This document shows, in pieces, positions 12,589 through 37,430 of a stretch of DNA of 45,191 bases. Each line of letters opens with the position of its first letter. Positions within the stretch are counted from its first letter, which is position 1. Location of the stretch: contig JAIPGP010000020.1 in NCBI GenBank assembly GCA_021735645.1, positions 1 through 45,191 of the forward strand, given 5' to 3'. The translations under genes and the position numbers were made by a program. The notes under the pieces were generated by a model. It searched no databases and was not told the DNA's origin. It was given only the letters and a program-made list of their open reading frames with translations. This DNA comes from Candidatus Cloacimonadota bacterium (GTDB lineage: Bacteria; Cloacimonadota; Cloacimonadia; Cloacimonadales; TCS61).

Positions 12589-15500
12589 ATGAAAAGAGCA
12601 GTTGTGGTTTTAATACTATTATATGTAATTACTTTAGCGGCAGATTTTCCCAGACCCTGGGTTATAGTATTTTACACAAATTCCACAGTAGCCTATTGTC
12701 AGGTGACAATTGACGGAGAGATGGCGGTATCTGGAGATGAGGTGGGAGCATTTGTGGACAGCGAATGCCGGGGAGTAGGCGAAGTGATCATATCTGAAGA
12801 GCAGGCTATATGCTCGATGAACATTCAGGGCAATGTAATAGAAGAGGTGGAATTTGCTGTCTGGGATGCCAGTGAAGATCAGGTATGTGTGGTTAATTAC
12901 ACCACAAATACACTTCCTGGCGGCGATATTGGCTACCCTCCGAACTTATTACCAATCAATGCCATATCTGATCCCAATCAAAATCTTGCCCCGGTATGGA
13001 GTTTGCCAGCTGAAATCGAATGGGCTGAGGATAGCAATTATAATCTGAATCTTAATGCATATGCCAGTGACCCGGAGGGCAATTATCTGGTGTTTATCTG
13101 CCTGGAAAGTGGTGATCTGGAAGTAAATATTTCTATGGGACATGCCGTGCTGGTGCCGGCAGCCAATTATTTTGGTTCTTGTGAATTAGTATTTTCCGCC
13201 AGTGATGGCGAAAACATTTCGCTGGATACTTTGCAGGTAACTGTGACTGCTGTAAATGATCTGCCGGTGGTGTTTATCAGTGATATTTTTTCTTTTGCTG
13301 AGGATACGGAGCTGATAATTGATCTTACTGAATATGTTACAGATATAGATAATGATGATCTGGAGATAACAATCAGTAATAACTATCATATTCAGTGGTA
13401 CGTAGATGGGATGCTGCTCACTTTGAGTGGGCAATTGAACTGGAATGGCATGGAAAACCTGCTGCTGAGTGCCAGTGATGGAGAAGCAGCGGATTCAGAT
13501 AACTTTATGGTAATCGTAACACCTGTAAATGATGCACCGCAGATAAATTTGCCAGCAGCAGTAGCCTTTAATGAAGATACAGAACATATTGTGAATCTAA
13601 ATAATTACAGCAGTGACCCTGATGGTGAAAGCCTGAACTACAGCTATAGCGGTGGAGATCAGGTAAATTGCACGATCACGGGCAATTATCTGATTTTAAG
13701 TGCAGAAGCAGACTGGAATGGTGAAGAATATATCCTGATAACCGCTACTGATGCAGCTTCGGCTTCAGACACTGATACATTGCAGGTGATAGTTAATGCC
13801 GTAAATGATGCTCCGCAGATAGACCTGCCTGTAGAATTCACTTTTGCGGAAGACAGTCAGCTGGTAATAGATTTCGGTGAATATGTGAGTGATGTTGACG
13901 GAGATGAATTAAGCCTGCTGGTTTCGGGTAATTCGCAGATAAACGTTCAGATGAGCGAACTGGAAGTTACTTTTAGTGCTTCGGCAAACTGGTGGGGTGA
14001 GGAGCAATTGCAGTTCACAGTTAATGATGGACAGATTCGCGCCATTGCCAGCGATCAGGTGCTGATAAGTGTAAACTCAGTTAATGATGCCCCCATATTA
14101 AACCTGCCTGCGGAACTGAGTTTTTATTCTTATAGCCAGTTGACAGAAAACTTTTCTAGTTACATCTCTGACCCTGAAAATGATGATCTGACTCTGGCAG
14201 TAAGTGGAAATGACAGTATTTTTGTAGAGATAAACGGTTTGAATGTAACTTTTTCGGCTGAACCCGGCTGGTTTGGAATCGAAGAGCTCAGTTTCAGTGC
14301 CGATGATAGCGAGCTGGTTTCCACCGGTACTATGACCGTAGAAGTTCTTGAGCCCAGTGAGTTGCCGGATATTATTCTGCCGGAGACAATCAGTTTTGAC
14401 GAAGATACGGAGCTCAATCGTGATTTTTCGATCTACATATTCAATAGTGAAGGATTTGATCTGGCACTTACATCAGCCGGAAATGCGCAGATCGTGGTTG
14501 TTATTACAGATTACAGTGTAAATTTTTCTGCTCCGGCAGACTGGAGTGGCACAGAGGCGATCAGTTTTGTGATCAGTGATAATATGGCGGGTTTTGAGAC
14601 CTTTGACAGTGTAGTGGTGAATGTGAATCCGGTAAATGATGCTCCTCAGCTTGACTTACCGGAGGAAATCAGTTTTGAGGAGGATAGCATTTTTTCACTT
14701 GATTGTGCTCCGTATATCACTGATATAGATAATGAGGAATTTACTCTTTCTGTGACCGGGAATCAAATGATACTGGTGAGTATAGCAGGCACTCTGCTTA
14801 ATCTGAGCGGAACCACTGATTATTATGGAACAGAACAGCTTTATGTGACAGTGAATGATAATTCCGGCAGAGCCTTAGACACTGATACACTGATAGTGAA
14901 TGTGGAGCCTGTGAATGATATTCCTGTGCTTAACTTTCCGGCAGAAATATTATTCAATGAAGATGAAGTATATCAATTTGCGGTAAATGATTATATTTAT
15001 GATGCTGATGCAGATTCACTGGAGATAATATTCAGCAGTGACTTTGGCTGCGAATTTCTCTGGCAGGCAGAAGCAGTGAACCTGATACCCCCGGCAGATC
15101 ATTATGGAGACGGCTTGATCATAATAGATGTTTCAGATGGGATAGAAAGTCTTACTGGTGAAATTGAGGTAACTATCTTCCCAATAAATGATGCGCCTGT
15201 GCTGGAGCTGCCGGATAATTTCACTTTTGCCGAGGATGAAGTATTCAGTTTTGATTTCAGCGATTATGCCAGCGATGTGGACGGTGATAACCTGCAGATA
15301 GAATATGCAGGACCGTTTTTTATATTTGTGGATATCTCCGGAACTATCGTGGAACTGCAGCCGCTCTCAAACTGGAATGGTATTGCAGATATGACATTTA
15401 CGGTTAGTGACGGCATACTCACTGCCAGTGATGAAGTGGAGATAATTGTGGAAGCTGTGAACGATATGCCCAACCTGAGCAGTTTTTCACCAGAACAAAC

Positions 15501-18500
15501 AGAGCTGCTTTTTTATGGTGAAACTGGGTTGGATTTTTCTGTAAATGTGTATGACAATGATAGTGAACTTAATTATATCTGGTATATAAACGGGCTTGAT
15601 CAGGGAATAAATGCTGCTGCCATGCAGTATAATTTTTTGGAAAATGGTGAATACACCGTGCTGGTGGAAATCAGCGATGAAGAATATTTACTTACCCAGC
15701 AGTGGCAGGTAACCATTTATTCAGGACCCGGCTGGGAGTTAGTAGTTTATACTAATTCCACGGTGATCTATTCTGAGGTGACAATTGATAATGAGCCGGC
15801 TGAAGAGAACGATCTGGTGGGTGCTTTTATTAATGGAGAATGCCGGGGAATAGGTGAAATTGTTTTGGATGGAGATACATCTCATTCTTCTTTCCTGATC
15901 CAGAGTGAAGCGGTGGAAACTGTGAATTTTATGGTTTATTCTGCAGCTGATGAAGCTGTGTATAGCGTACTATATACCACACAAACTAATCCCGGTGGTG
16001 ACCTTGGTTATCCGCCTGATAACCTGATCCCGCTCGCTGCTTATACTACACCAGGTCCTGGCTGGGTACCGGTAGATACTTATGATAACTGGACAACTGT
16101 ATATTCCACGGTGACAATAGACGGTGAAATGGCTGCTGACTCAGACGTGGTGGGAGCTTTTGCTGCTACTGGCGAATGTCTGGGACTGGGCACTATAATA
16201 GTAACTGATGAAACAGCCTATTGCACAATAGATGTATTTCAGGATGTTGTGGCAGAATTCAGTTTCAAAGTCTGGGATGCCAGTGCTAATGATATATATG
16301 AAGATTATACCGTGTATAATACCATACCGCAGGGTCAGATAGGTGAACCCGGCTCAGAAATAGAAATTGCCGTACTTTCTATTACAGGTCCCGGCTGGGA
16401 ACCGGAGATATATACCAACAGCACAACAGCATATTTTGTAATCACCTTAGATACGGAACTGGTGCAGGAAGAAGACCTTCTGGGGGTATTTGTAGAAGAT
16501 GAATGCCGCGGGACAGGCAGCATAATCCATTACGAAGGTGAGTCCATTTCTACAATCGAAATACAGGGCGAAGCAGTGGAAACCTGCTCCTTCCGGCTTT
16601 GGGATGCCTCGGCAGAAGAAATCTTTTTTACTGATACGCAGATAGATTCAGAGCCCGGTGGAGAAATAGGCTATCCGCCAGATGAAATTGAACTGAATTT
16701 CTGGAGCTATGAACTGCCGGAATATGAGGAATTTCCGCGACCCTGGAACGTGGTATATTATACAAATTCCACAGTAGCCTACGGCAGCATCAATATTGAC
16801 GATCAGCCTGTGACCGTCGGTAATGAGATTGCCTCTTTTGCCGGCAGCGAATGCCGTGGACTGGCAGAAATTGTAATCAATGATGGTATTTCCGTTTTTA
16901 CGATGAATATACAGGGTGATGTAGCAGAGGCAGTGCAATTTAATTATTATGATGTAATGGAAGATCAGATTTACAGTGTAGAATATTTCACAATCACCAA
17001 TCCCGGCGGTGATATAGGCTATCCGCCTAATCTGCTGCCGCTGAATATCTATACGAACTTTGCTCCGGAAGTAAACCTGCCTCCTGGTTTCAGTTTTGAT
17101 GAAGACGAAGTAGTGGTTCAGGATATGAGTGAATATATCACTGATCCCGATGGCGATGAGCTTATCCTATCCTTTAGCGGGAATGAGCAGATAAATATCA
17201 GTATTGATGGTATGATAGTGACTGCTTATGGCGATGAAAACTGGAATGGTACTGAAACTATTAACTACAGCGTGGATGATGGCAATGGACACATTGTTAC
17301 CGGCACTCTGGTGCTGGAAGTGCTGCCTGTGAATGATCCCCCGGATATATCTCTGCCTTACAGCTTCACTTTGCAGGAAGATCAGGAACTCACAGTTGAT
17401 TTCAGTACTTATATCAATGATATAGAGGGTGACGAATGGTTCCTGACTGCCAGTGCAACCGAGAATATCACTGTTAGTATTAATGAAAGTATGGTCACAC
17501 TCACTCCTGATGCAAACTGGAATGGGCAGGAAACAATAACCTTCACTGCTGATGATTATCAGGACAGTAATTTCGATGATCTGATAGTGATAGTTAATCC
17601 CCAGCCGGATGCTCCAATTGTAAATTTACCTGACCAGTTTGATATTTATGAAAACACCTATCTCACAATCAGTATCGCTGAATATATCAGTGATCCTGAT
17701 GGCGATGATTTTTCAGTATATGCTACTAATACGGACGAAGTTTCAGTGGTGGTGAGCACAGATTCAATCACCATTATGCCCAATCCTGACTGGTGGGGAA
17801 CAGATACGATCACGATCAATGCTGATGACAGCACGATGCGATTAATTGGTTCTGATGACGTAATAATCAATGTAATACATGTTCATCAGCCACCTGATCT
17901 ATTTTTACCAGAGCAATTTATGATAGATGAAGACTCACCTGAGAATTTTGATCTTTCGGCATACTACTATCTGTATGAAGGGGAGGAGTTTGCCTTCTCA
18001 GCCACAGGTAATGACTCTATTATCCTCACTTTTGAAGGTGATATTCTCACAATTGCTGCCCCATTGAACTGGAATGGTATGGAAACAGTAGTTTTTACTC
18101 TGGATGATGAACCCGCCCGGCTCACAGTTTCCGATACCGTAAATATCATAGTTACAGAAGTAAATGACGAACCTGAGATAGTTAACTGGCAGCCGTATGA
18201 GCTGGATCTTGAAGTAATAATTGACAGCACTATCACCTTTAGTGTAGTAGTAGAGGATGTGGAAGGTGGAATAGGTTATAACTGGTATTTAAACGGTGTA
18301 GAGCAGCCGGACATTGTTGAAGAATATACAGTCACGTTTGATGCTGCCGGTGAATATGAAGTGGAGTGTATGGCATATGATGAAACAGCAGAGCGCTATA
18401 AAACGTGGAATATCACTGCTACTGAGGTAGATAATGATCCTTCAGGTCTATATGCTGCCACTGCCCTTACGGGTAACTACCCTAATCCCTTTAATCCTGA

Positions 18501-18729
18501 AACTGCCATTCGCTACTGTGTTTTAGCTGAAGACCTGCCGGCAGTTCTTAAAATCTTTAATTTGAAAGGGCAGAACCTGAAAACCTGGCAGATTTCCCTC
18601 AGCGGCAGCCGGCAGATAGTCTGGGATGGCTGCGATGACCAGGGGAAGAAGCAGGCTTCAGGGTTTTATATATACCAGTTGCAGAGCGGTGCCGGCATTG
18701 ATAGCAGCCGCATGCTCCTGCTTAAATAG
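12589..18729 (+). CDS. Giant secreted modular repeat protein with C-terminal sorting domain
   Basis: 2046 residues with a signal peptide (MKRAVVVLILLYVITLAADF). Order of modules: a YTNST domain (about 22-128); nine cadherin-like repeats of about 90 residues, most opening ND.P...LP....F.ED and containing SD.DGD.L (130-955); a PKD-like domain with WYINGLDQG (955-1045); three tandem YTNST domains (1046-1380); a fifth YTNST domain preceded by FPRPW (1381-1490); four more cadherin-like repeats (1490-1858); a second PKD-like domain; and a FlgD-like/T9SS type A-like sorting domain (1962-2046, GNYPNPFNPETA ... MLLLK). The YTNST unit has conserved YTNST.AY..VTID, VGAFV..ECRG.G, F.VWDA and PGGDIGYPP. 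It is very acidic and probably an adhesin or surface filament. GAGG precedes the ATG. The ligand is unknown. Confidence 0.88.
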   Translation: MKRAVVVLILLYVITLAADFPRPWVIVFYTNSTVAYCQVTIDGEMAVSGDEVGAFVDSECRGVGEVIISEEQAICSMNIQGNVIEEVEFAVWDASEDQVCVVNYTTNTLPGGDIGYPPNLLPINAISDPNQNLAPVWSLPAEIEWAEDSNYNLNLNAYASDPEGNYLVFICLESGDLEVNISMGHAVLVPAANYFGSCELVFSASDGENISLDTLQVTVTAVNDLPVVFISDIFSFAEDTELIIDLTEYVTDIDNDDLEITISNNYHIQWYVDGMLLTLSGQLNWNGMENLLLSASDGEAADSDNFMVIVTPVNDAPQINLPAAVAFNEDTEHIVNLNNYSSDPDGESLNYSYSGGDQVNCTITGNYLILSAEADWNGEEYILITATDAASASDTDTLQVIVNAVNDAPQIDLPVEFTFAEDSQLVIDFGEYVSDVDGDELSLLVSGNSQINVQMSELEVTFSASANWWGEEQLQFTVNDGQIRAIASDQVLISVNSVNDAPILNLPAELSFYSYSQLTENFSSYISDPENDDLTLAVSGNDSIFVEINGLNVTFSAEPGWFGIEELSFSADDSELVSTGTMTVEVLEPSELPDIILPETISFDEDTELNRDFSIYIFNSEGFDLALTSAGNAQIVVVITDYSVNFSAPADWSGTEAISFVISDNMAGFETFDSVVVNVNPVNDAPQLDLPEEISFEEDSIFSLDCAPYITDIDNEEFTLSVTGNQMILVSIAGTLLNLSGTTDYYGTEQLYVTVNDNSGRALDTDTLIVNVEPVNDIPVLNFPAEILFNEDEVYQFAVNDYIYDADADSLEIIFSSDFGCEFLWQAEAVNLIPPADHYGDGLIIIDVSDGIESLTGEIEVTIFPINDAPVLELPDNFTFAEDEVFSFDFSDYASDVDGDNLQIEYAGPFFIFVDISGTIVELQPLSNWNGIADMTFTVSDGILTASDEVEIIVEAVNDMPNLSSFSPEQTELLFYGETGLDFSVNVYDNDSELNYIWYINGLDQGINAAAMQYNFLENGEYTVLVEISDEEYLLTQQWQVTIYSGPGWELVVYTNSTVIYSEVTIDNEPAEENDLVGAFINGECRGIGEIVLDGDTSHSSFLIQSEAVETVNFMVYSAADEAVYSVLYTTQTNPGGDLGYPPDNLIPLAAYTTPGPGWVPVDTYDNWTTVYSTVTIDGEMAADSDVVGAFAATGECLGLGTIIVTDETAYCTIDVFQDVVAEFSFKVWDASANDIYEDYTVYNTIPQGQIGEPGSEIEIAVLSITGPGWEPEIYTNSTTAYFVITLDTELVQEEDLLGVFVEDECRGTGSIIHYEGESISTIEIQGEAVETCSFRLWDASAEEIFFTDTQIDSEPGGEIGYPPDEIELNFWSYELPEYEEFPRPWNVVYYTNSTVAYGSINIDDQPVTVGNEIASFAGSECRGLAEIVINDGISVFTMNIQGDVAEAVQFNYYDVMEDQIYSVEYFTITNPGGDIGYPPNLLPLNIYTNFAPEVNLPPGFSFDEDEVVVQDMSEYITDPDGDELILSFSGNEQINISIDGMIVTAYGDENWNGTETINYSVDDGNGHIVTGTLVLEVLPVNDPPDISLPYSFTLQEDQELTVDFSTYINDIEGDEWFLTASATENITVSINESMVTLTPDANWNGQETITFTADDYQDSNFDDLIVIVNPQPDAPIVNLPDQFDIYENTYLTISIAEYISDPDGDDFSVYATNTDEVSVVVSTDSITIMPNPDWWGTDTITINADDSTMRLIGSDDVIINVIHVHQPPDLFLPEQFMIDEDSPENFDLSAYYYLYEGEEFAFSATGNDSIILTFEGDILTIAAPLNWNGMETVVFTLDDEPARLTVSDTVNIIVTEVNDEPEIVNWQPYELDLEVIIDSTITFSVVVEDVEGGIGYNWYLNGVEQPDIVEEYTVTFDAAGEYEVECMAYDETAERYKTWNITATEVDNDPSGLYAATALTGNYPNPFNPETAIRYCVLAEDLPAVLKIFNLKGQNLKTWQISLSGSRQIVWDGCDDQGKKQASGFYIYQLQSGAGIDSSRMLLLK

Positions 18730-18746
18730 AAATAAGCGAGCTGAAA

Positions 18747-19943
18747 ATGAAACAAAGCATTTTCTTATATCTATTTTTCTCACTCTGGCTGTTTTGCCTG
18801 GCTGATCCTGATTGGGAACCAGTGATCTACACAAATTCCACAGTTGCCTATTCGCGTGTGACAATTGATGAGCTTTCTGCTGTTCCTGGAGATATTGTGG
18901 CTGCTTTTGTAGAAGGTGAATGCCGCGGGGTAGGCGATGTGATCATCGATGAGGGAGAAGCCTACTGCACAATGAATATTCAGGGTAATATTGCCGAACA
19001 GGTGAGTTTTCTCGTTTGGGATCAAAGCATAGACACGACCTGCTCAGTGGAATATACCACCATGACAGACCCCGGTTATGATATTGGTTACCCGCCGGAT
19101 TTTTTACCAATTGAGGCGTATTCAGGCAATCCTATCAATCATTACCCGGTCATGAATCTGCCGGACAGCTTCGTGATCCCCGAAGATATTCCAACTACTT
19201 ATGATTTTGCTGACTACTGTTCTGATGAGGATAATGATCCGCTGACGGTTACGGGTGAAAACAGTGAGCATATATATGTTTCAGGAAATGGATTAATAGT
19301 GACATTATCTTCTGCTGAGAACTGGGTTGGCTTTGAGTACGTTACACTGTGGCTTTCAGATGGCAGCTTATTTGTGCATGACAGCGTGGAAGTGTATGTG
19401 ACTGCAGTCAATGATCCACCCGAGATCACCGATACTTATCCCGCTACAGGTGCCATTGAAGTAGAGCAAAATAATCCTGTCAGCTTTGCTGTGATGGCTC
19501 AGGATATTGATTCCGCCATCAATTATACCTGGTATCTGGATGATGCTGTTCAGTCTTCTACAGATTATATATTTAATTACACTTTCACGGAATTAAGTAC
19601 CTATCAGGTACGCTGCCTTGTTTCAGACGGGTTTTATGAAGTAGAAGCTCTCTGGCAGGTAACCGTTAATATTGAGCCCGTTAACGAAAATTCGCTGACG
19701 AATTATTTGCTGATAACGCCAAACCCCTGCTCAGAGAATCTCACTATCCAGGGTCTGCTCTTAAGGACCGAAAATTGCCAACTGGCTCTTTACGATCTGC
19801 GAGGCAGAAAAGTTATGCAGTTAAATTCAACCAGAACAGGAAAAATTACTGCTCCTGTCTCACATCTACCTGCTGGCATCTACTTCCTGAATCTCACTTC
19901 TCCTGACCGGAATATAACCAGGAAAGTAACTATCAGCCGTTAG
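18747..19943 (+). CDS. Secreted YTNST-domain protein, short relative of its neighbour
   Basis: 398 residues: a signal peptide, one YTNST domain (about 22-128, YTNSTVAYSRVTID, VEGECRGVG, MNIQGN, PPDFLPIEAYS), one cadherin-like repeat (about 130-220), one PKD-like domain (NYTWYLDDAVQ, about 250-310) and a C-terminal sorting domain. The sorting domain here is the classic T9SS type A form (LLITPNPCSENLTI ... LYDLRGRKV ... LPAGIYFLN ... KVTISR), without PNPFNPET. It is 17 bases downstream of the giant gene and probably co-transcribed. It is the minimal version of the module order seen twice in the giant protein, so duplication and repeat expansion are likely. Confidence 0.87.
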   Translation: MKQSIFLYLFFSLWLFCLADPDWEPVIYTNSTVAYSRVTIDELSAVPGDIVAAFVEGECRGVGDVIIDEGEAYCTMNIQGNIAEQVSFLVWDQSIDTTCSVEYTTMTDPGYDIGYPPDFLPIEAYSGNPINHYPVMNLPDSFVIPEDIPTTYDFADYCSDEDNDPLTVTGENSEHIYVSGNGLIVTLSSAENWVGFEYVTLWLSDGSLFVHDSVEVYVTAVNDPPEITDTYPATGAIEVEQNNPVSFAVMAQDIDSAINYTWYLDDAVQSSTDYIFNYTFTELSTYQVRCLVSDGFYEVEALWQVTVNIEPVNENSLTNYLLITPNPCSENLTIQGLLLRTENCQLALYDLRGRKVMQLNSTRTGKITAPVSHLPAGIYFLNLTSPDRNITRKVTISR

Positions 19944-33427: not shown

Positions 33428-35368
33428 ATGAGAAGAGCATTAATGACAATTCTGGTTATAACGGCAGTAATAAGTCTTTGGGCAGAGACATATTTTGTGC
33501 CGGCTGATTTTGAGACAATTCAAGGGGCAATCAGGAATGTAGCAGACGGTGATGTTATAATAGTATCACCAGGGATTTATTGGGAGAATATAAATTTTTT
33601 GAGTATGTCAATAATTGTTGGTTCTTTTTATTATACAACTCAGGATACGAGTTACATTGCTCAAACTGTGATAAATGGTAGTGCCTCTGGCAGTGTGGTG
33701 CAATTTGACAGTGGAGAGGATTCTACCTCAGTATTATCTGGATTTACCATTACAAATGGTTATGTGAGTAGTGAATTGCCGGAAGATGGTGGAGGCGGAA
33801 TTTGTTGTCGATTTACGAGCCCAAGTTTGCAGAACTTGATCATAACAGGCAATACGGCAGGTTTTGGGGGAGGAATATATTGTTATGAAAATTCCACTGT
33901 TCATCTTATGAATGTATTGATCGAGAATAATACCGCCAATTTAGCGGGAGGTGGCATGTGCCTGTATCAGAATTCTAGTGCAGTTATGGAGGGAGTAAGA
34001 ATTTATAATAATGAAGCATTAGGTTTTGGATCTGAGCAGCATCCCCAGTGTGGAGGAGGCATATATAGTGATATAGATTGTTCTCTGGAAATAGATAATG
34101 TGATTGTAGCAGGCAATACCGCCCTTGGAGGGGGAGGATTAATGCTGCTTTGGAATGCTGAGAGCTTTTATGAGAATCTTACAGTTGAGAATAACACCGC
34201 AGGCATTGGCGGCGGGATTTATATCCTTGTTAGCGAAATACATCTGAATAATTCAATATTAGAAAGCAACACAGCCGACATAGCAGGGGGGTTATTTTGC
34301 GCAGGAAATAGAATGAATGACCGTCATCCCACCTTTAACAATGTAACAGTAGCTAATAATAGATCCAGTAGACAGGGGGCAGGAATGCTGTTTGACGGGT
34401 CTATACCGATTATGACAAATATGTTGATAGAAGGGAACTGCTGTTATGGAATAGATTATTCCATGGGTGGCGGGATGTATTTTCGAGCCTCTAATCCCTG
34501 GTTGAGGAATGTAGTCGTAAGGAATAATTCAGTATTTTATTTTGGTGGAGGAATATATCTAAATGAGTTTTGTGAAGCAAGATTAGAGAATGTGCAAATA
34601 ACTGATAATGAGGCATATCACAGTGGAGGAGGTATTGGCGTTTATAATGCTGCAGCGGAATTGGTCAATGTAACCATAGCTGAAAATAGATCTCAGGATT
34701 ACGGGGGAGGATTAAGTAGCTATCAATCCAGCACAACTCTGGTAAATTGCATATTTTGGAATAACCTTCCCGGTGAAATTTATCTGGAAGATTATGAGAA
34801 TAATCCGGGTGAGATGAATATTGCTTATTCCGATGTATCAGGTGGGGAAGCTGGGGTGGTAGTTAATGATAACCATTTAAACTGGTTGGGGCATAATATT
34901 GATGCAGACCCGTTGTTTATGGATATTATTAATGGAGATTATCATTTGGAAAGCAGCTCTCCCTGCGTTGATGCAGGAACAGATTATTTTATTTACGAAG
35001 ATGAAGTCCTGGTGGATTTGAGTGAAGAGCAATATTGGGGAAGTGATCCGGATCTGGGGGCTTATGAATATTTCTCAGATGATAGTGCTGAAGCTGAGAT
35101 ATTACCCGTGGGAATAAGTATGCATAATTTTCCCAATCCATTTAATCCGGAGACGAGGATTTATTTTGAACTGCAGGAGCCTGTTAAGGTGAAACTTTCT
35201 GTTTACAATGTGAAGGGACAATTAGCAGAGGAATTGATAAATGACAATCTGGAGGCAGGAGAGCATGACGTGGTGTGGGACGCCAGCAGGATGAGCTCTG
35301 GTGTGTATCTGGTGAGATTGCAGGCGGGAGTAGAGACTACAGTGGGAAAAGTTTTGCTTTTGAAGTAA
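33428..35368 (+). CDS. Secreted right-handed beta-helix protein with sorting domain
   Basis: 646 residues. A signal peptide (MRRALMTILVITAVISLWAE) is followed by FVPADFETIQGAIRNVADGD, the start of a pectin-lyase-like parallel beta-helix (about 22-480). It is built from rungs with repeated N.A...GGG(I/M).....N (for example NTAGFGGGIYCYENS). The rung pattern matches the polymorphic outer-membrane/CSLREA-like class. The end (about 565-646) is a FlgD-like sorting domain with NFPNPFNPETRIYFELQ and KVLLLK. It is probably a surface adhesin or glycan-binding protein; no catalytic residues can be assigned. GTAGGAG precedes the ATG. It converges on the C10 protease gene. Confidence 0.88.
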   Translation: MRRALMTILVITAVISLWAETYFVPADFETIQGAIRNVADGDVIIVSPGIYWENINFLSMSIIVGSFYYTTQDTSYIAQTVINGSASGSVVQFDSGEDSTSVLSGFTITNGYVSSELPEDGGGGICCRFTSPSLQNLIITGNTAGFGGGIYCYENSTVHLMNVLIENNTANLAGGGMCLYQNSSAVMEGVRIYNNEALGFGSEQHPQCGGGIYSDIDCSLEIDNVIVAGNTALGGGGLMLLWNAESFYENLTVENNTAGIGGGIYILVSEIHLNNSILESNTADIAGGLFCAGNRMNDRHPTFNNVTVANNRSSRQGAGMLFDGSIPIMTNMLIEGNCCYGIDYSMGGGMYFRASNPWLRNVVVRNNSVFYFGGGIYLNEFCEARLENVQITDNEAYHSGGGIGVYNAAAELVNVTIAENRSQDYGGGLSSYQSSTTLVNCIFWNNLPGEIYLEDYENNPGEMNIAYSDVSGGEAGVVVNDNHLNWLGHNIDADPLFMDIINGDYHLESSSPCVDAGTDYFIYEDEVLVDLSEEQYWGSDPDLGAYEYFSDDSAEAEILPVGISMHNFPNPFNPETRIYFELQEPVKVKLSVYNVKGQLAEELINDNLEAGEHDVVWDASRMSSGVYLVRLQAGVETTVGKVLLLK

Positions 35369-35471: not shown

Positions 35472-37430
35472 TTATTTCAATAAGACCATTTTGCCTGTGC
35501 TGGTATAGCGTCCTGATCTGACCTTGTAGTAATATAATCCACTGCTTACTGAGTGGTTATTATCATCCAGTCCATTCCAGATTGTCCGCTGTTCACCTGC
35601 CGCAACTCTGGCATTAACCAGTTGACGTATCATCTGCCCTTTCAGATTGTATATACTCAGGTTCACATCTGCGGCAGTTTTTACATTATAGACAATTTCC
35701 GTTTCAGGATTGAAAGGATTGGGATGATTTCCCAAAAGTTCAATATTTCCGGCGGCTATTTCATCTTCATCGCTGCCAGTGAGTGCTACAGTGATCACTA
35801 CTTCATCAGGATCACTGAAGAAGGTGCCATCAGAGACGGTTAGAGTAATGATATAATCAGTTTCTTCAGTAACTGCCGGAGCAGTGAAAACAGGATTAAC
35901 TATAGAGCTGCTGGAAAGAGTGATCCCTACCGGGGCAGTCCAATAATAAGAGAGGGCATCACCATTAAGGTCATAAGACCCGCTGCCATTAAGAGTTACT
36001 ACTTCCCCGGAAACCGCAGTTATATCATCTCCGGCATCTGCCACAGGTGCTGTAGCGGGAGCAATATTAATAGTAACCATTTCGCTCATATCAGATTCAC
36101 CCGTCACAAATAAAGCTGTCACCCAGAATAAATAAGTGCCATTAGGCAGGTTATTGACCATATAGCTTGGTTCATCAGGATCAGTAGTATCTTCCAGTAA
36201 ACCGTTATTATAAACATTAAATCCCAGTAAACTGCGATCTAATTCATTATGATCCCAGCTTAATAATACATCATTACCATTTAAAACCACTCCTGTAACA
36301 TCATAAGGTGCTGAAAGGTCTTCGTAGGGGAATAAACTAAATACTCCACCCTGTTGTTCATTAAAACTACTGCCGCCGGGATTAAGATTTGATAAATAGA
36401 AATAACCGTTAGCATATCCTGACCAGCCCCAATTGAAGTGGAAAAAACTTGTTCCCTGATAGCCATCCAGATTGAAAGCATGTCCATACCCTCCACCAAC
36501 ACCACTATAGATCAGCGGGTAACCGGCATCAAGGTCTGCTCTGATATAGGCTTCATAAGTGCTGGTAGAATAACTATCTTTTGCCCGGAAAGTTGCTCCA
36601 GGATGATAATCAAAATTTGCTACCATGGCATTACGTGCACTATAATTGCCATAACCAACCTGGGCACCGGAACCATCTGAGCCATAATCCATTTCTACTG
36701 CCACTCCGCAAGCCCACTGCAATTCTTTAGTTTCATAAGTAGCATAACTATTATTCATACTATCATAATCAAAATCTGTAGCACTAAAATCACAGCTTAT
36801 ATTTCCATATTGCGGATGATTATAGCTATGTGAACCAGTCCCGGTAGTCGGATGACCCCAGTAATACATTACCTGTGCCATAGATACTGCCACGCAGCCG
36901 GAATATACAAAAGGATTATTTTGCCCTGGTCCGCGTGGGCAATGCTGATTCCAGGGAGAGTCCTGATTCCAGTTACAGGTCAGAAGTGGAGACACATCCC
37001 GCAGATCACGAACAGGGGTAAATTCTTCTGAGGGCACCAGTAATCGCTGCCATTCTGCTTCAGTCTGCTCACCTGCTGCCAGATCATTAGTGCGGATTTC
37101 CGCCATCTGCCACTGCCATTCGAAGAACCAGTCCGCTAATTGCACCGGAGCAGTTGCCGGATCATAAATGCCTTCAAAACTGTATGCCAAGACCGGGACT
37201 GCCCGGTCGTCAGCAGAAATCATCACATAACCGCTATTATTATAATTAAATACATATAGATCAGCTTCTTCTGCACCGATCTGATAAAACCCTGTCCATT
37301 CCAGGTTTTCCATCCCCCCACGCTCTGCTATCATATTACCTGCCGCCAGTTGAGCATCTTCAATAGACACTGCTGCTGACCACAAAAATCCTACCCCCGC
37401 TATCAACATCAATAACATTAATTTCTTCAT
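35472..37430 (-). CDS. Secreted C10 family (streptopain-type) cysteine protease with sorting domain
   Basis: 652 residues: a signal peptide (1-19), a propeptide (about 20-140, VMISADDRAVPVLAYS), a C10 catalytic domain, a fibronectin III-like domain (about 390-475), a PKD domain (about 480-560) and a FlgD-like sorting domain (about 575-652, GNHPNPFNPETEIVYNV). The nucleophile is Cys179 in YSGCVAVSMAQVMYYWG and the general base is His317 in GYGHAFNLDGY. FHFNWGWSGYANGYF completes the site. The family cleaves proteins outside the cell, and the propeptide keeps it inactive until processing. Nearest start: ATG with GGAGTG upstream. Confidence 0.93.
   Translation of the reverse strand: MKKLMLLMLIAGVGFLWSAAVSIEDAQLAAGNMIAERGGMENLEWTGFYQIGAEEADLYVFNYNNSGYVMISADDRAVPVLAYSFEGIYDPATAPVQLADWFFEWQWQMAEIRTNDLAAGEQTEAEWQRLLVPSEEFTPVRDLRDVSPLLTCNWNQDSPWNQHCPRGPGQNNPFVYSGCVAVSMAQVMYYWGHPTTGTGSHSYNHPQYGNISCDFSATDFDYDSMNNSYATYETKELQWACGVAVEMDYGSDGSGAQVGYGNYSARNAMVANFDYHPGATFRAKDSYSTSTYEAYIRADLDAGYPLIYSGVGGGYGHAFNLDGYQGTSFFHFNWGWSGYANGYFYLSNLNPGGSSFNEQQGGVFSLFPYEDLSAPYDVTGVVLNGNDVLLSWDHNELDRSLLGFNVYNNGLLEDTTDPDEPSYMVNNLPNGTYLFWVTALFVTGESDMSEMVTINIAPATAPVADAGDDITAVSGEVVTLNGSGSYDLNGDALSYYWTAPVGITLSSSSIVNPVFTAPAVTEETDYIITLTVSDGTFFSDPDEVVITVALTGSDEDEIAAGNIELLGNHPNPFNPETEIVYNVKTAADVNLSIYNLKGQMIRQLVNARVAAGEQRTIWNGLDDNNHSVSSGLYYYKVRSGRYTSTGKMVLLK

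Follow-up and report, generated by a model that had tools for sequence, protein, structure and literature searches.

The six related segments found in two adjacent genes of the window (the whole stretch of 45,191 nucleotides that was analysed) are copies of a real unit that is previously unnamed in the libraries and literature searched, and that from its predicted all-beta sandwich fold is an autonomous domain of about 105-110 residues. As a beta-sandwich module carried by exported proteins it is of an ordinary kind, while its placement inside the phosphate permease PstC is odd and lifts its interest above that of a routine new domain. The reading we favour, to which we would give a probability of about 0.45, is that the unit, called here the YTNST module after its first motif, may be a module that surface scaffolds and adhesins use for non-catalytic binding, multiplied in this lineage from a mainly T9SS-exported family, and that it holds onto an extracellular polymer. 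It is favoured because of the cohesin-dockerin context in which the module occurs, its fold class and its conserved loops. The two genes and their parts are as follows.

12589..18729, + strand: P0001, giant secreted protein of 2046 aa (open reading frame, translation, Pfam/NCBIfam)
12643..12984, + strand: YTNST module 1 of P0001 (blastp/alignment; E 7.6e-54 in the genome profile search, the value of a training member since this copy was among those that built the profile)
12997..15708, + strand, limits approximate: first cadherin-like/Big_9 repeats of P0001 (Pfam Big_9, Cadherin_4 and Cadherin_5; limits from translation)
15715..16047, + strand: YTNST module 2 of P0001 (blastp, alignment, profile)
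16048..16380, + strand: YTNST module 3 of P0001, divergent, with YDNWT and ECLG (blastp, alignment, profile)
16381..16710, + strand: YTNST module 4 of P0001 (blastp, alignment, profile)
16726..17064, + strand: YTNST module 5 of P0001 (blastp, alignment, profile)
17077..18468, + strand, limits approximate: second cadherin-like/Big_9 block of P0001 (Pfam; limits from translation)
18478..18714, + strand: C-terminal sorting-type tail of P0001 (TIGR04183, FlgD_ig)
18747..19943, + strand: P0002, neighbour protein of 398 aa (open reading frame, translation, Pfam/NCBIfam)
18798..19130, + strand: YTNST module 6 of P0002, the copy folded by AlphaFold2 (blastp, alignment, profile, model)
19137..19367, + strand: cadherin-like/Big_9 repeat of P0002 (Pfam)
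19461..19649, + strand: PKD domain of P0002 (Pfam, 23.9 bits, cut-off 23.5)
19719..19934, + strand: Por_Secre_tail (T9SS sorting domain) of P0002 (46.2 bits, over the cut-off of 27)

Following a signal-like N-terminus, P0001 carries module 1, a cadherin-like/Big_9 region, modules 2-5, the second cadherin-like block and a T9SS/FlgD-type tail. P0002 is a shorter version with a signal-like N-terminus, module 6, a cadherin-like repeat, the PKD domain and a T9SS tail. A C-terminal sorting domain of the kind that marks type IX cargo is clear in P0002 and weaker in P0001, where TIGR04183 scores 23.0 bits, exactly at its NCBIfam cut-off of 23, and FlgD_ig scores 25.3 bits, under its Pfam cut-off of 27. 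A candidate component of the secretion machinery in the genome is a PorU-like open reading frame (C48, E 7.6e-115) whose 383.7 bits lie below the 420-bit cut-off. Neither window protein has a cohesin or a dockerin by Pfam. Elsewhere in the window, a C10-family peptidase with an Inhibitor_I69 propeptide-like domain, a PKD domain and a T9SS tail is encoded at 35472-37430 (-), and a protein with a T9SS tail and polymorphic-membrane-protein-like (Chlam_PMP) repeats at 33428-35368 (+).

The initial annotation had described six copies of this unit, five in P0001 and one in the adjacent P0002, and this is borne out. With module 6 as the blastp query the other five are found at E 2e-18 to 7e-44 in a database of the two proteins, and a degenerate DNA pattern for YTNST has five matches against 0.02 expected from shuffled sequence. 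The alignment of the six copies has 15 invariant columns and a mean column identity of 59%. The proposed motifs hold in part: YTNST and ECRG are each exact in five of the six copies, while conservation is looser than claimed elsewhere, with exact MNIQG, F..WDA and PGG.IGYPP each present in just three. Module 3 has lost both YTNST and CRG, reading YDNWT, ECLG and IGEPG. The module had also been said always to precede cadherin-like repeats, which is correct within the window but not across the genome, where other copies follow cohesins (C110, C43, C69 and C98), lie within a permease loop (C97) or share a protein with PKD domains and a dockerin (C36).

No match to an existing named domain turned up, the one outcome on which the description of the unit as new had been staked, and identity with a named domain is rejected at the level of sequence across Pfam, NCBIfam, PHROGs and the sequences of the PDB. 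Searched singly, none of the six window copies matched Pfam even with the limit set at E 10, NCBIfam gave rows of chance level alone (best 0.02, far below cut-off), and nothing credible matched the module among PDB sequences. An alignment of the wider family (A4, 19 rows, with diverged relatives from other phyla) matched no model either, the best values being 0.081 in Pfam and 0.015 in NCBIfam. A 17-row alignment of Cloacimonadota and Desulfobacterales copies (A3) reached 0.035 at best against PHROGs, and with only such chance-level rows there a viral or phage origin found no support in that library. The cadherin-like, Big_9 and tandem-95 repeats (PF17803, PF17892, PF17963 and NF012211) also recur as beta domains in these exported proteins, but none of these models matched the modules, and with no Pfam or NCBIfam profile match the copies are ruled out as cadherin-like repeats or cohesins. 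Nor was there a sequence match to the Cohesin and Dockerin profiles of Pfam or to any carbohydrate-binding module (CBM), and no publication in the library searched mentions by name either the module or the insertion in PstC.

Structure prediction, which the initial annotation had suggested, returned a confident beta domain. The AlphaFold2 model of module 6, built from 46 homologous rows from the window and related loci, has a pLDDT of 95.2 and a pTM of 0.87, with seven predicted strands (residues 14-23, 32-38, 41-51, 54-62, 68-75, 80-89 and 103-108); a model of three modules in tandem has a pLDDT of 84.8 and a pTM of 0.69. Foldseek against the PDB gave nothing at E ≤ 0.001. Its best row was the CBM20 starch-binding domain of STBD1 (8x8k, E 0.017, probability 0.96, TM 0.39-0.42), and the next rows include further starch-binding domains such as that of B. 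cereus beta-amylase. VIA-align placed a rhamnogalacturonan lyase at the top (94 residues, rmsd 3.6) with a Z of 8.0, in the range that the tool itself calls common or background, followed by ushers, the CBM20 of CGTase, CnaB and transthyretin, with CBM20 rows at Z of about 6-7. Since the Z values do not rise above the stated background, they suggest only the fold class, and the weak matches include non-binding folds. Most of the matches are to what we take to be prealbumin-like sandwiches (SCOP b.3). The predicted fold of the module may resemble those of CBM20 and other prealbumin-like sandwiches, but the module differs from CBM20 in having no sequence match to that family, either in Pfam to E 10 or among PDB sequences, and a TM of about 0.4.

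In strand order, YTNST is at the start of strand 1, ECRG in the hairpin between strands 2 and 3, IQG...E in the loop between strands 4 and 5 and PGG.IGYPP in that between strands 6 and 7. Taking the DSSP strands to alternate up and down, rather than measuring from the coordinates, all four would share one end of the sandwich.

The window genome, by inference a Candidatus Stygibacter-type member of the Cloacimonadota, is 3.77 Mb in size and 95% complete. It has 89 module matches at E ≤ 0.01 by profile search, in 19 open reading frames, the largest of 6106 aa. Such a profile search had also been proposed at the outset, and it matched the module widely in the phylum, in 74 of 124 Cloacimonadota genomes at E ≤ 1e-3. 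The broader A3 profile matched 85 of 386 genomes at E ≤ 1e-4, including five that are not Cloacimonadota; by inference this divides into 80 of 124 genomes inside the phylum and 5 of about 262 outside. Out-of-phylum copies mostly retain the (A/G)AF, R-G, second-half F and WDA-like positions, and some directly precede T9SS-type tails. From this spread, wide in the Cloacimonadota with a few diverged copies elsewhere, the unit is therefore a lineage-expanded Cloacimonadota branch of a wider, library-unnamed domain family that is mostly T9SS cargo. With a predicted fold of its own, no library match, exported hosts of T9SS type and 89 matches in one genome, the original description of a recurring undescribed surface module stands.

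Named relatives with the module include Ca. Stygibacter frigidus, the Cloacimonadota MAG Tobar13.5m-G51 and a Desulfobacterales MAG. In the last of these, a protein (L034:4129-6492, +) has fn3 and PKD domains, then one typical module of 55-57% identity, and at its end an EF-hand/dockerin-like tail, which Pfam does not confirm; this module copy could possibly have arrived by horizontal transfer. Small one-module open reading frames are also found in three other genomes, at L090/L041 (G096:C34, 230 aa), L088 (G088:C230, 221 aa) and G082:C90 (229 aa). The 230-aa protein, the one read through, has a single module between a signal-like start and a cadherin-like half, and no T9SS tail was seen in it.

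The module is under purifying selection. Compared with copies from Stygibacter frigidus, five of the six window modules have a dN/dS of 0.05-0.12, with dS at 1.5-2.5, near saturation; the ratio is undefined for module 3. In a tree of modules, which has few columns and unsettled bootstrap values and whose deep forks were not used, each of modules 2-5 of P0001 has as its partners, with starred support, the modules that occupy the corresponding place in two other MAGs. This position-wise pairing indicates that the order of modules in P0001 is old and has been kept, and it leads us to reject recombination as what keeps the P0001 copies alike. The gene pair itself recurs in three genomes (G087, G088 and G082) as a large or contig-cut open reading frame beside one of 399-412 aa. 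In contrast to P0001, the 6106-aa open reading frame (G000:C29, L057:1233-19550, -), which has 17 modules, contains 12 of them consecutively in one run, eight of which have a counterpart elsewhere in that protein with an identity of 98% or higher. These copies look as they would after recent tandem duplication, with the proviso that near-identical tandem repeats may be miscounted in a MAG.

In the window genome dockerins are matched 32 times and cohesins 21 times, and the module is present in five of its eight cohesin-bearing open reading frames (Fisher p 0.0006), or in five of six if only those of at least 1100 aa are considered (Fisher p 0.004), the tests being made from typed lists of open reading frames with at least 150 scored in the tail list. 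In C110 and C69 a run of cohesins is followed by a module within about 30 aa and in C43 after about 57 aa, giving module starts 26-57 residues after the cohesin; the copies in C69, C110 and parts of C98 and C43 are weak, diverged matches. C36 combines nine modules with PKD domains, Laminin_G_3 and Dockerin_1. Most module copies lie in proteins without a cohesin. A cohesin-dockerin complex has already been proposed for Ca. Stygibacter (PMC8542988), a genus shared with the window genome by inference, and the dockerins, cohesins and module-bearing cohesin proteins seen here are a point of likeness to it. Section 7 of that paper describes cohesin and CBM2/CBM3 domains for the Stygibacter scaffold and does not mention the module.

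Conservation was counted over 119 weighted copies (effective number 41), after 25 weak or partial matches out of 144 had been excluded. The positions most strongly kept are E41, C42 and R43, each at 95%, followed by D75 (89%), D32 (86%) and E67 (85%). It was from the Cys-Arg-Gly and acidic positions that the initial annotation had proposed metal or ligand binding, with Ca2+ or Cys-linked metal sites, and the retention of these four acidic residues and the cysteine is what such a module might show. The argument from Cys-Arg-Gly is nevertheless weak. Among 11 typical rows from other phyla, a count that excludes six more diverged out-of-phylum rows of the same alignment, Arg-Gly is kept in all 11 while the cysteine is replaced by isoleucine or valine in nine and kept in two. 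A metal role for the cysteine is thus unlikely as a function of the family, and the substitutions suggest that position 42 fits a buried hydrophobic residue better than a metal ligand. Calcium may still be bound, D32 and D75 being widely conserved, but Pfam matched no calcium-loop motif in the module, and overall we consider a metal-binding module very unlikely.

The module is also found in an unexpected place. In the window genome a PstC phosphate permease of 557 aa (G000:C97, L065:2936-4606, +) has two modules inserted between its first transmembrane segment and the WHPT region; the only Pfam match of this open reading frame is BPD_transp_1, and it was named PstC by eye from its sequence and gene order. 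The same fusion is seen in four genomes, G000, G087 and G082 with two modules each in C97 and its counterparts, and G096 with three, each time in a pst gene cluster beside PstS-, PstA- or PstB-like open reading frames that were likewise named by eye (L065, L076-L079). Since it recurs in four genomes, in pst clusters and with module sequences of their own, an assembly error is rejected. Among 121 genomes of the phylum searched, 60 had a PstC match at E ≤ 1e-60, and the open reading frame is long in four of them; in the remaining 56 it is of 169-347 aa, two of these being fragments. Of six aligned relatives lacking the insert, five have a cleanly empty site, the sixth being cut short at its beginning. 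The modules of PstC nest, in the tree, inside the expanded clade of secreted modules, so they most likely derive from it. Extra soluble domains attached to phosphate permeases of the Pst type are known in DUF3333 and DUF3708. The present fusion is similar in adding soluble domains to the permease but differs in that its insert consists of YTNST modules and Pfam sees only BPD_transp_1. The loop that holds the modules is presumably periplasmic, by the usual Pst topology.

What the module does has to be judged against these settings. As a structural spacer, it would be an Ig-like brick that lengthens or stiffens giant surface proteins, its motifs serving folding or packing between modules. The alternation with cadherin-like, Big_9 and PKD repeats is consistent with this, the 12-module run with its near-identical copies is as length-adjusting repeats would show, and the pTM of the three-module model is compatible with a partly fixed packing. 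Single, non-tandem copies that follow a signal peptide, in P0002 and in the 230-aa protein, keep the motifs however, and the copies of P0001 are distinct and in the same order in other MAGs, something that spacing by itself would not call for, so that we regard the spacer reading as possible but somewhat unlikely. The module could instead bind a partner protein much as a cohesin binds a dockerin; a secreted enzyme, an S-layer or a further module might be that partner. Co-occurrence with cohesins and a dockerin would fit, and PstS is a plausible example of such a protein for the two or three copies that PstC has in its periplasmic loop; as no candidate partner family was identified and the module does not match Cohesin or Dockerin in sequence, docking seems unlikely.

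Under the binding-module reading that we favour, the Stygibacter lineage would have hugely multiplied the Cloacimonadota branch of a T9SS-exported domain family. Giant surface or secreted proteins would present arrays of the module, spaced by cadherin-like and PKD repeats, and these arrays may hold the cell, or cohesin-dockerin enzyme scaffolds, onto an extracellular polymer, for example a glycan or matrix. At one end of the sandwich, the conserved YTNST, ECRG, IQG...E and PGG.IGYPP would together make up a putative binding face. Extracellular glycan binding does not obviously explain the modules in the PstC loop. It is conceivable, though we think it distinctly improbable, that YTNST is a general ligand-capture module used on both sides of the outer membrane, outside the cell as long arrays and in the periplasm as part of a PstC hybrid that, close to its channel, would sense or hold a phosphate-bearing polymer, its partner PstS or its substrate.

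The libraries searched are blind to a domain that one genome carries in 89 copies and that has relatives in over half of the Cloacimonadota genomes examined, and because of this gap only the spacer repeats are annotated along tens of kilobases of giant genes. Once the module has a name, the domain layout of Cloacimonadota surface proteins and cohesin scaffolds could be read. Related genomes that have one and the same permease, some with the modules and some lacking them, are a clean natural experiment on module function, which becomes testable in a transporter assay. If the ligand-capture reading were true, surface binding and phosphate uptake would share one recognition module.
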